Source: Clostridia bacterium (GTDB taxonomy: Bacteria > Bacillota > Clostridia > Oscillospirales > CAG-272). From it: DNA of 43,119 nt. This document shows, piece after piece, positions 11-37,524 of the stretch. The stretch spans positions 1 through 43,119 of the forward strand of contig JAFQOX010000105.1 of NCBI GenBank assembly GCA_017412045.1, in the 5' to 3' direction. The position numbers and the translations under genes are program-made. Each line of letters begins with the position of its first letter. The stretch's first letter is position 1. Below the pieces are notes generated by a model. It searched no databases and had not been told where the DNA came from. It saw only the letters and a program-made list of their open reading frames with translations.

Positions 11-141
11 TTTTTATTGCATAGGAAATTGCGCAAATAGAACCTCGCCGTTTATATCGTTTGGATACAGTCTTAACTGCGATAGGCGAGCACACAGCTT
101 GCAGAGCAAGCAGTTTTCCAGCGGGCGTTGCCCGCTTTTTT
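11..141 (+). repeat. Structured intergenic repeat, copy A
   Basis: This 131-bp element recurs at 10761-10891 with a single base difference, and more diverged copies lie near 23164, 23487 and 37482 (reverse). It starts with a T-tract followed by CATAGGAAATTGCGCAAA. Pairings visible are CTCGCC with GGCGAG (a closing stem around about 40 nt), an inner CAGT/ACTG stem, a GCTTGC-AGA-GCAAGC hairpin and a final GCGGGC-GTT-GCCCGC hairpin followed by six T. It contains no ORF. It may be a small non-autonomous element or a structured RNA with its own terminator; the sequence does not decide between these. Confidence 0.9.
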
Positions 142-9903: not shown

Positions 9904-10671
9904 ATGAGCATTATTAAGAATGAAATACCAATATTGGAGTTTGATACCGACAGGACAGCGGTTATCAATCCAACTCACGAAAAGTTAGATTTGAAGCTCC
10001 CGAAAAAGTGCGTGTTTGCTTTTCTCGGTGAGTATATTGAAGAATACGCAAGCAAGACAGAAACACGGAAGGTGTCTGAGTTCGTCAGCGCAACGAAGCT
10101 TTACCCGATCTACATAACGAAATACAAGGGTGAAGAAATCGTACTCTGCCAAGCTCCCGTAGGAGCTGCACCTGCGGCACAGATACTTGACTTTCTGATT
10201 GGCTACGGTGTGCATGAGATCATCTCTGCCGGTTCTTGCGGTGCGCTTGAAAAGTTCCCCGAAAGCACGTTTCTTGTGCCGAACAAAGCTCTGCGTGATG
10301 AAGGAACGTCTTACCACTATGCGCTTCCTTCTCGTTTTATGGAGATCAGCGAAAGAGCGAGAAAAGCAATCAAGGAAACCGTATTTGAACATGGTATGAA
10401 ATATCAAGAGGTCATTACTTGGTCAACAGACGGATTCTATCGAGAAACCAAAGAAAAGGTTGCCTACCGAAAGGGCGAAGGCTGCTCTGTCGTTGAAATG
10501 GAGTGTTCGGCTCTTGCCGCTGTTTCCTCTTTCAGAGATGCAACATGGGGTATGATACTCTACACCGCCGACATCCTTGCCGACGTAGATAAATACGACG
10601 AACGAAATTGGGGCGGCAACGCATACGAATATGCGCTGACTCTCTGCCTTGATGCGGTGCTTAAACTATAA
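9904..10671 (+). CDS. Nucleoside phosphorylase (PNP/UDP family)
   Basis: The 255-residue protein is a family-1 nucleoside phosphorylase: phosphate-binding region VGAAPAAQILDFLIGYGV, ISAGSCGAL in the core and VVEMECSALAAVSSF, where Met-Glu-Cys corresponds to the ribose-binding Met-Glu of uridine and purine phosphorylases. It would split a nucleoside with phosphate into base and ribose 1-phosphate. The base preference cannot be read from the sequence. It is the last gene of the 7717-10671 cassette, follows the phosphoesterase by 27 bp and is closed by a strong terminator. Confidence 0.88.
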   Translation: MSIIKNEIPILEFDTDRTAVINPTHEKLDLKLPKKCVFAFLGEYIEEYASKTETRKVSEFVSATKLYPIYITKYKGEEIVLCQAPVGAAPAAQILDFLIGYGVHEIISAGSCGALEKFPESTFLVPNKALRDEGTSYHYALPSRFMEISERARKAIKETVFEHGMKYQEVITWSTDGFYRETKEKVAYRKGEGCSVVEMECSALAAVSSFRDATWGMILYTADILADVDKYDERNWGGNAYEYALTLCLDAVLKL

Positions 10672-10727: not shown

Positions 10728-10766
10728 TTCCCACGAACCTTTTGTTCCGGTCCGTGGGATTTTTTA
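10728..10766 (+). terminator. Intrinsic terminator of the four-gene cassette
   Basis: TCCCACGAACC (10729-10739) pairs with GGTCCGTGGGA (10749-10759) with one mismatch, followed by six T. The T-tract is shared with the first bases of repeat copy B. Confidence 0.9.
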
Positions 10767-10891
10767 TCGCATAGGAAATTGCGCAAATAGAACCTCGCCG
10801 TTTATATCGTTTGGATACAGTCTTAACTGCGATAGGCGAGCACACAGCTTGCAGAGCAAGCAGTTTTCCAGCGGGCGTTGCCCGCTTTTTT
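10761..10891 (+). repeat. Structured intergenic repeat, copy B
   Basis: Identical to 11-141 in 130 of 131 positions and in the same orientation, with the same stems and the same final GCGGGC/GCCCGC hairpin plus six T. It begins exactly in the U-tract of the preceding terminator. The near-identity to copy A points to recent movement or gene conversion, in contrast to the diverged copies elsewhere. Confidence 0.92.
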
Positions 10892-23134: not shown

Positions 23135-23163
23135 TCGTAACTCCGTTCTCCGCCCAAAGGCGG

Positions 23164-23220
23164 TTTTTTATTGTATGAGAAATTGCAAAAAATGGTCCTC
23201 GCCGTTTCGCATTGCGATCC
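23164..23220 (+). repeat. Structured repeat, truncated copy C
   Basis: Starts with the T-tract, then TATGAGAAATTGCAAAA and CCTCGCCGTTT, and then the similarity stops; the 3' half and terminator are lost. It directly follows a CCGCC-CAAA-GGCGG hairpin (23150-23163). It lies, in antisense, in the 5' leader of the URO-D-family gene. Confidence 0.75.
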
Positions 23221-23231
23221 TGATACCTTTT

Positions 23232-23260
23232 ATGATAGCATAATTGATCGCATATGTCAA
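23232..23260 (-). promoter_or_regulatory. Promoter of the URO-D-family gene
   Basis: On the minus strand TTGACA (23260-23255), 17 nt and TATCAT (23237-23232). The transcript would carry the antisense of repeat copy C and the CCGCC/GGCGG hairpin about 10 nt before the ribosome binding site. Confidence 0.75.
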
Positions 23261-23486: not shown

Positions 23487-23598
23487 TTTTTTGTACCATA
23501 GGAAATTGCGCAAAATGGTCCTCGCCGTTTCTCATTGTTTCAATACAGGCTGAACTGCGGTAGGCGAGCAACTTCCTGCGGGCGTTGCCCACTTTTTT
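23487..23598 (+). repeat. Structured intergenic repeat, copy D
   Basis: Shares the 5' module (ATAGGAAATTGCGCAAAAT), the CTCGCC/GGCGAG stem, an inner CAG/CTG stem and the final GCGGGCGTTGCCCAC plus T-tract, in which the last stem has one mismatch. It lacks the GCTTGC/GCAAGC hairpin of copies A and B. Confidence 0.88.
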
Positions 23599-23662
23599 GT
23601 TTTATTGCAAAATTCGCTACGCCAACCCACAGGTCAGCGTAGCGAATACTACTGATAGGATC

Positions 23663-37369: not shown

Positions 37370-37482
37370 AAAAAAAGCGGGCAACGCCCGCTCGAAGTTG
37401 CTCGCTTATACAAGTTTGGCTTGTATCTCAACAATGCAAACGGCGAGGTTGATTTTGCGCAATTTCCTATGGAATAAAAAAA
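37370..37482 (-). repeat. Structured intergenic repeat, copy E (reverse)
   Basis: In reverse orientation it shows the T-tract, CATAGGAAATTGCGCAAAAT, CTCGC/GCGAG, a perfect ATACAAG/CTTGTAT inner stem and the final GCGGGC-GTT-GCCCGC hairpin with seven T. The inner stem differs in sequence from copies A and D but keeps pairing, which supports a selected fold. Confidence 0.9.
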
Positions 37483-37500
37483 GCTGCGTGTCGCTTTTGA

Positions 37501-37524
37501 GCAATTTCCTATACAATAAAAAAA
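37501..37524 (-). repeat. Partial repeat copy (5' module, reverse)
   Basis: In reverse, a seven-T tract, ATTG, then TATAGGAAATTGC: only the first module is present. It sits head-on upstream of copy E, with a short AAAAGC/GCTTTT hairpin between, again giving module-hairpin-T-tract-module order. Confidence 0.65.

Follow-up and report, generated by a model that had tools for sequence, protein, structure and literature searches.

Group IIC introns insert behind transcription terminators, whose hairpins they recognise (excerpts of PMC3898094). SPRITE repeats of Streptococcus pneumoniae carry a terminator-like hairpin with a U-rich tract, are enriched behind genes and yielded no matching IS; they are AT-rich, with an 18-bp stem, a longer T-rich tract and AAAA/TTTT ends, occur in 30 copies in the genome studied, and could not be assigned a site duplication (excerpts of PMC3049150). 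MITEs such as BOX and RUP are small non-autonomous repeats that show site duplication and nested insertions (excerpts of PMC3049150 and PMC10969869). The BCR repeats of the Bacillus cereus group are 100-400 bp long, and one of them, bcr1, is present in tens of copies, has mobile features and a TTTAT motif, and moves by a mechanism that is only proposed (excerpts of PMC6542083). Stem-loop repeat families are also known in C. perfringens and C. tetani (excerpts of PMC2267715).

The repeat described here was found in the window, a stretch of 43,119 nucleotides that makes up positions 1 to 43,119 of contig JAFQOX010000105.1 of a Clostridia bacterium (assembly GCA_017412045.1). It is probably a non-autonomous mobile element that makes a short target duplication and uses the T-runs of terminators as landing sites, a reading based on its position behind T-runs, the duplicated base, comparison of filled with empty sites, and the occurrence of arrays. 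The original prediction had proposed a five-copy family; four of these copies stand, the one at 23164-23220 turns out to be decayed and to have no recognisable 3' end, and a further 5' fragment lies at about 37523-37490 on the minus strand. The parts of the window that concern the repeat are as follows.

11-16, plus strand: target T-run and purine (TTTTT A) before copy A, from the sequence.
17-135, plus strand: copy A, long form, with pentamer TTGCA, TAGGAAATTGCGCAAA, closing stem, extra GCTTGC/GCAAGC hairpin and terminal hairpin (121-135); 76.2 bits over 18-111.
136-141, plus strand: T-run after copy A, by eye.
10730-10765, plus strand: native intrinsic terminator, hairpin CCCACGAACC/GGTCCGTGGG and T6, the landing site of copy B, by eye.
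10767-10885, plus strand: copy B, long form, with terminal hairpin at 10871-10885 and T-run at 10886-10891; 75.2 bits over 10768-10861, 99% identical to copy A.
23150-23169, plus strand: native hairpin CCGCC/GGCGG and T6 before decayed copy C, by eye.
23171-23220, plus strand: copy C, decayed, with a recognisable 5' half; 17.9 bits, E 0.0025 over 23172-23260.
23487-23493, plus strand: target T6G of copy D; the same T6G stands again after copy D at 23593-23599.
23494-23592, plus strand: copy D, short form, with terminal hairpin at 23578-23592; 97.6 bits.
37377-37474, minus strand: copy E, short form, with target T7A at 37482-37475, terminal hairpin at 37391-37377 and T-run at 37376-37370; 100.7 bits.
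37490-37523, minus strand: 5' piece of an earlier copy (TTTTTTTATTGTATAGGAAATTGCTCAAAA...), standing before the T-run that hosts copy E, from sequence, alignment and the 5'-end pattern.

Copies A (11-141) and B (10761-10891) are 99% identical across 131 nt, and parts of the copies at 23487-23598 and 37482-37370 (minus strand) align to A/B or to each other at 76-89%. A covariance model whose training set included two of these same copies gave E values of 4e-19 to 4e-26 for four copies in the window and 0.0025 for the fifth (23172-23260). The shared features named at the outset, a T-run, CATAGGAAATTGCGCAAA, a CTCGCC/GGCGAG stem and GCGGGC-GTT-GCCCGC with a T-run, were all seen, as was the extra GCTTGC/GCAAGC hairpin of copies A and B. 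The T-run at the 5' side is present in the copies as described, and it belongs to the host site rather than to the repeat: the native hairpin and T-run at 10730-10765, which precede copy B, stand behind the PNP_UDP_1 gene at 9904-10671. By eye, CGGCATTTA upstream of copy A is similar to GCATTTACTTTTT, which precedes several other copies, and ATAGGAAATG at 142-151 looks like the 5' remnant of another copy. Two neighbours of copy A were also recorded. At 153-345 lies a separate inverted-repeat unit (arms 153-223 and 275-345, 70% complementary, with GGGCTTGTTTGAAAAATGACAACACGCCC), part of which recurs in locus L024 and which looks like another MITE; and 428-2551 encodes a BspA-type leucine-rich repeat protein (LRR_5) of 707 aa.

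The expectation that the host genome would contain many further copies was borne out: TAGGAAATTGCNCAAA has 91 exact matches there (50 forward, 41 reverse), and a reversed-pattern control has 0. Both ends could be read in 93 rows drawn from 60 fetched stretches and the window, corresponding to 92 separate copies, since one row covers both the 5' fragment and copy E. In 85 of the 93 rows the length from the pentamer to the foot of the hairpin is 98, 99, 119 or 120 nt; the repeat is thus short, multi-copy and free of genes inside, as a MITE should be. Read from the host sequence inwards, a T-run that is mostly T6 comes first, then a purine, four bases that vary, ATAGGAAATTGCGCAAA, a spacer and CTCGCC; these are followed by a variable interior, GGCGAG, a linker that is either short or includes the GCTTGC/GCAAGC hairpin, the terminal hairpin (for example GCGGGC-GTT-GCCCGC or GCGGCGATTCGCCGC) and a T-run. 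Head-to-tail copies are frequent, at a spacing of ~105 or 127 nt. Terminal inverted repeats were not found: the best 12-nt match between the ends averages 5.89 (6.59 with the T-run) against 5.28 in shuffled sequence, and 0 of 56 copies reach 9.

Base changes with retained pairing had been taken as a sign of a folded RNA or DNA element, in particular for an inner stem differing between copies. For the structure analysis 63 distinct short copies were picked, of which 60 and then 56 were aligned, seven divergent rows (three of them a second subfamily) being excluded. Among the 56 copies, 96.1% of cells pair in the closing stem, which is mostly invariant, and 98.5% in the terminal hairpin. Both partners of a pair have changed in 35 cells of the structure, 31 belonging to the terminal hairpin, versus 6.9 in shuffles, and at one pair of the terminal hairpin a full G-C/C-G swap is present in 12 of 56 copies; the number of pairs with such changes, 4, is not in excess of the shuffles (3.3). 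The covariation holds for the terminal hairpin and fails for the inner stem, of CAG/CTG type, in which two key column pairs are complementary in just 23 and 13 of 56 copies. With the terminal hairpin removed, the copies (28 of the 56 were folded) do only slightly better than shuffles, with a mean z of -1.0 for the plus and -0.45 for the minus strand, and G-U pairs are not in excess of A-C mismatches in the two stems (5 vs 12). Because the fold outside the terminal hairpin is weak and G-U pairs show no excess, selection on an RNA fold is not demonstrated, and the idea of a folded functional RNA as such was not upheld. Pairing of the variable 5' bases with the inner segment is weak (mean run 3.25 vs 3.15 in shuffles, with 35 of 500 shuffles as high). 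The statement that no known RNA class applies agrees with the Rfam searches: at gathering score there were 0 matches in the window, 20 class and family loci gave three tRNAs only, and at a low threshold (one locus, E up to 10) there were only weak matches far below gathering scores.

Landing sites in the host genome were compared with other T5-9 runs of the same genome. At 36 of 65 sites the T-run has a hairpin immediately before it, versus 288 of 1727 control runs (p 5e-12); 29 of the 65 have no hairpin by this simple test, and by eye several of these resemble longer hairpins. The base following the T-run is also skewed, with A45 G18 C2 at the sites versus A321 G603 C803 in the controls. The upstream gene is codirectional at 38 of the 56 sites that have both neighbours, and a simple ORF caller places 8 of 65 sites within an ORF of at least 110 aa. 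Two side observations concern these T-runs. In L003, L014, L024, L029 and L050 the landing T-run is part of the repeated GCATTTACTTTTT sequence, which may be where another MITE ends. In L009, L021 (4376) and L024 the T-run of the copy itself is broken after GCCCGCTT or GCCCACTT by a common end, CAG(A/G)CTGTCGAAAAA, which is probably the end of an IS that uses the element's hairpin as its target and which we take to be IS1182-like.

In 70 of 80 copies of the home genome, the T-runs on the two sides of the element are followed by the same base (13 of the 93 rows, with no T4 run on both sides, were dropped). Genus-wide, 176 copies have both ends, and 90 of those with no other copy behind them have a T-run of at least 4 on each side; in these the base agrees in 76, against a permutation expectation of 47.9 that 0 of 2000 permutations equalled, and agreement at the next five positions is not above expectation. 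When another copy stands behind, the base agrees in 40 of 41. Disagreement is seen in 14 of the 90 copies, and also for copies B and E of the window. Copies with identical 59-nt cores occur at A, G or C sites; since examples among them (L027, L028 and L034) have the same base behind them, the duplicated base belongs to the site. Runs such as TTTCTTG or TTTATTC are found on both sides of such copies. Among impure T-runs, those of L017, L019, L031, L055, L061, L135, L140 and L143 show a certain duplication of just 1-4 nt; in L004 (where the following base differs), L027, L028 and L109 the impure run recurs in full, and three of these four follow another element-like hairpin by eye; and many more irregular pairs among the 62 listed match neither pattern. 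The sure duplication is the purine plus some number of Ts, without a fixed length; with impure target runs it is often a mere 1-4 nt and the 3' run consists of T alone, so that the element may supply Ts of its own. Outside the genus the comparison does not discriminate, as the base is nearly always A (36 of 60 agree vs 34.9 expected). A target site duplication, which is expected of a MITE, is thus found in the home genus, where it comprises at least the base after the T-run.

The joined flanks of 115 sites were searched against all collected loci. Of 31 matches that passed the filter, most were matches between copies or weak similarities, and two sites were accepted, both of them paralogous repeats within one assembly rather than strain pairs at the same locus. 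At the first, filled L170 reads GGGGAGGC-TTTTTTTG-[element]-TTTTTTG-CAATTTTCG and empty L131 of the same assembly reads GGGGAGGC-TTTTTTTG-CAATTTTCG, with 97.6% identity over 85 nt. At the second, filled L113 and L142 have CTGCT-ATTTTTA before the element and TTTTTTA-CAAATTC after it, and empty L148 of the same assembly has CTGCT-ATTTTTA-CAAGTTC (78-79% over 82 nt); a third filled copy of this site, L118, has a different 3' junction. As the 3' run in L113 and L142 is longer than that of the target, the element seems to bring some Ts of its own. Orthologous empty sites between species were set aside, intergenic DNA being too diverged for comparison.

Among 39 genomes (the home genome, 6 of its genus and 32 of its family or order), TAGGAAATTGCNCAAA is present in the home genome and in 5 of the 6 genus members, and in 0 of the 32 others; the five carry 7-117 copies, and the genus member with none is 93% complete. 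A longer pattern searched over genome contigs gave at least 76 stretches; among the matches listed, all are in four metagenome assemblies that bear Oscillospiraceae or Clostridia bacterium as title, three labelled as goat or roe-deer gut and the fourth being SIG642, with no source named. With a covariance model (R2), strong matches (E 2e-18 to 1e-10) appear in further genera within the family (g37, g47 and g80), and 17 of 395 genomes in all match at E 0.01, the weakest being doubtful. G147 has the same 5' end joined to a wholly different interior and another terminal hairpin. The 5' end alone consists of T-run, purine, N4 and ATAGGAAATTGC; searched as TTTTRNNNNATAGGAAATTGC and counting the home genome each time, it is present in 19 of 395 family genomes (6 genera), in 27 of 391 sampled class genomes (21 genera; interiors differ) and in 2 of 398 phylum-wide genomes, the second with a single match. 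As 15 of these 398 belonged to the home class, the rate outside the class is 1 of 383. Per genome, 5'-end matches peak at 151 within the genus (G003), at 51 within the family (G091 and G179) and at 36 elsewhere (G584), and reversed-pattern controls gave 0, bar one match in the family search. The class and family copies sampled often have a hairpin and T-run behind them, according to automatic 3' ends for 72 of 102 copies, some of which are wrong; the T-run in front is given by the search design.

Some relatives in the class depart from this form. L298, L299, L300, L304 and L305 have a long palindrome as their 5' end, built of a T-run, N4, ATAGGAAAT, a short loop, ATTTCCTAT, N4 and an A-run, and some such copies continue into longer sequence with further hairpins. 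By eye, the palindromic 5' end of some class genomes pairs the variable bases with the inner segment, and these copies may belong to the same superfamily. In L246 (G584:C4), class-relative copies and other sequence recur with a 313-bp period behind a tRNA gene. The copy at G005:C21:9659-9769 is 97% identical to a copy of the home genome (G000), and the long genomic matches listed between G000 and G005 are at 66-84%; to judge from the sequences, this suggests a recent exchange between species. Copy D of the home genome had 0 matches in phage or plasmid records, and the pattern with the closing stem had 0 in viral contigs, in which the 5'-end pattern matches 8 stretches. The class relative L305 matches 20 human-gut phage records, the 10 matches listed having no annotation; the class relative L298 has no plasmid matches.

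These spread data, nearly confined to one class, join the copy number, the position, the site duplication of the home genus, the filled and empty sites and the arrays as the directly supported properties of the repeat. One account of how it moves is SINE-like retrotransposition, in which an RNA ending at its own terminator would pair its U-tail with the A-run of another terminator and be copied there by a reverse transcriptase. The terminator at the 3' end, the T-run target, the fixed orientation and the asymmetric ends all suit it, as do a 3' T-run sometimes purer or longer than that of the target and first bases of the 5' end that vary among otherwise identical copies. The enzyme, however, is sparse: in copy-bearing metagenome assemblies, which are incomplete and may miss a mobiliser gene, the Pfam domain RVT_1 was found in just 9 of 20 genomes (6 of the 13 good ones) and was not found in G091 (97% complete, 51 matches), G584, G018, G580, G533, G147 or G137. 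The home genome has a sole RVT_1 match, in an RT-Cas1 fusion protein (RVT_1 with Cas_Cas1; L064 1294-3204, G000:C132), to which a protein in L065 (G005:C132) is similar. Because of this fusion and of the 7 of 13 good genomes in which RVT_1 was not found, a reverse transcriptase was rejected as mobiliser. Copies cut on the 3' side are moreover seen (e.g. L001, L013 and L026), whereas the 3' halves without a 5' end that this route predicts are few (L001 and L035), and we regard it as a somewhat unlikely origin of the copies. Movement as single-strand DNA by a Y1 (IS200/IS605-like) transposase, in the manner of REP sequences, would also account for asymmetric ends, a terminal hairpin and a short target tract, and Y1_Tnp was found in 13 of 20 copy-bearing genomes, one of them adjoining a copy in G006. 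Transposases of this class are not known to duplicate their target, in contrast to the repeat, in which the base that comes after the tract follows the site. Y1_Tnp was not found in G000 (91 copies, 88% complete), G003 (117 copies, 75% complete), G137, G018, G147 and G580 (91-94% complete) or G730, seven copy-bearing genomes of which several are incomplete assemblies; on account of this patchy distribution the Y1 transposase was rejected, and movement by it is unlikely.

If the repeat were an immobile host module, a regulatory RNA or terminator spread by duplication and gene conversion, its terminator end, its position behind genes and its covarying terminal hairpin would be understandable. 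Against such a module, which we hold to be improbable, stand the near-identity of copies at separate loci, the contrast between one genus member with 0 copies and others with 7-117, the arrays, the empty sites and the lack of a G-U excess. Descent from group IIC introns would explain the same class of landing site (excerpts of PMC3898094), and is yet more remote given a length of ~100 nt, no Rfam intron match at gathering score and 11 of 20 hosts in which RVT_1 was not found. A further search was directed at autonomous copies: 891 ORFs near class-level copies yielded 25 clusters common to different genomes, and no transposase was found in the 7 of these 25 that were scanned with Pfam (all five with at least 3 genomes, and two more). 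Their ten proteins, comprising ABC transporters, S-layer proteins, a Cys/Met enzyme, a copper amine oxidase N-terminal domain, an AraC regulator, a weak AAA match and a HAD hydrolase, were rejected as candidates.

For the preferred reading, a mobile element with a short target duplication, the following course of events is proposed. With its orientation fixed, the element would enter a T-run that has a purine after it, T-runs of intrinsic terminators being preferred, and would duplicate the purine and probably part of the T-run. The 5' end (N4-ATAGGAAATTGC) and the 3' terminator hairpin are most likely the parts read by the mobilising enzyme, since both are preserved between species and the interior can vary freely. 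Genes would be spared by an insertion behind a terminator. With a terminator at its own end, every copy would in turn offer a fresh target, and the head-to-tail arrays would follow from this. We infer that the mover would be an enzyme acting in trans, a DNA integrase being slightly likelier than an RNA-templated process, and that the element would be parasitic rather than a regulator. A wider proposal, tentative and less likely to be right than wrong, is that the copies represent a superfamily of mini-elements that spans the class and targets terminators. Only a 12-nt 5' signal and the terminator hairpin would be conserved in it, the interior would be replaced from species to species, and the mover would be an undescribed enzyme that recognises terminator structure, possibly one that copies the element from its U-tailed RNA, as in a bacterial equivalent of SINEs.

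Bacteria commonly carry small interspersed repeats, few of which have a defined landing rule. Terminators are safe harbours for this repeat, which rebuilds a terminator and so provides new harbours, and it gives many host genes a second or third terminator. With one 5' signal shared inside a single class, exchangeable interiors and no adjacent transposase found, it opens the long-standing question of how transposase-less repeats are moved to direct testing. As far as checked, the family is undescribed, is aimed at terminators and has an unusual landing rule; a limited check of open-licence papers found no description of such an element. Group IIC introns are ribozymes with a reverse transcriptase, unlike this repeat of ~100 nt with no intron match. 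MITEs resemble it in being small and non-autonomous and in their site duplication and nested insertions, and differ in having terminal inverted repeats, of which none were found here. By description alone, bcr1 and the other BCR repeats are like it as short multi-copy repeats with mobile features; their hosts differ, and a terminator landing site is not mentioned for them in the excerpts of PMC6542083. Like SPRITE, the repeat is short and interspersed, carries a terminator-like hairpin with a T-tract and stands behind genes; unlike SPRITE, it has a terminal stem of 6 bp, a tract that is mostly T6, and other ends.
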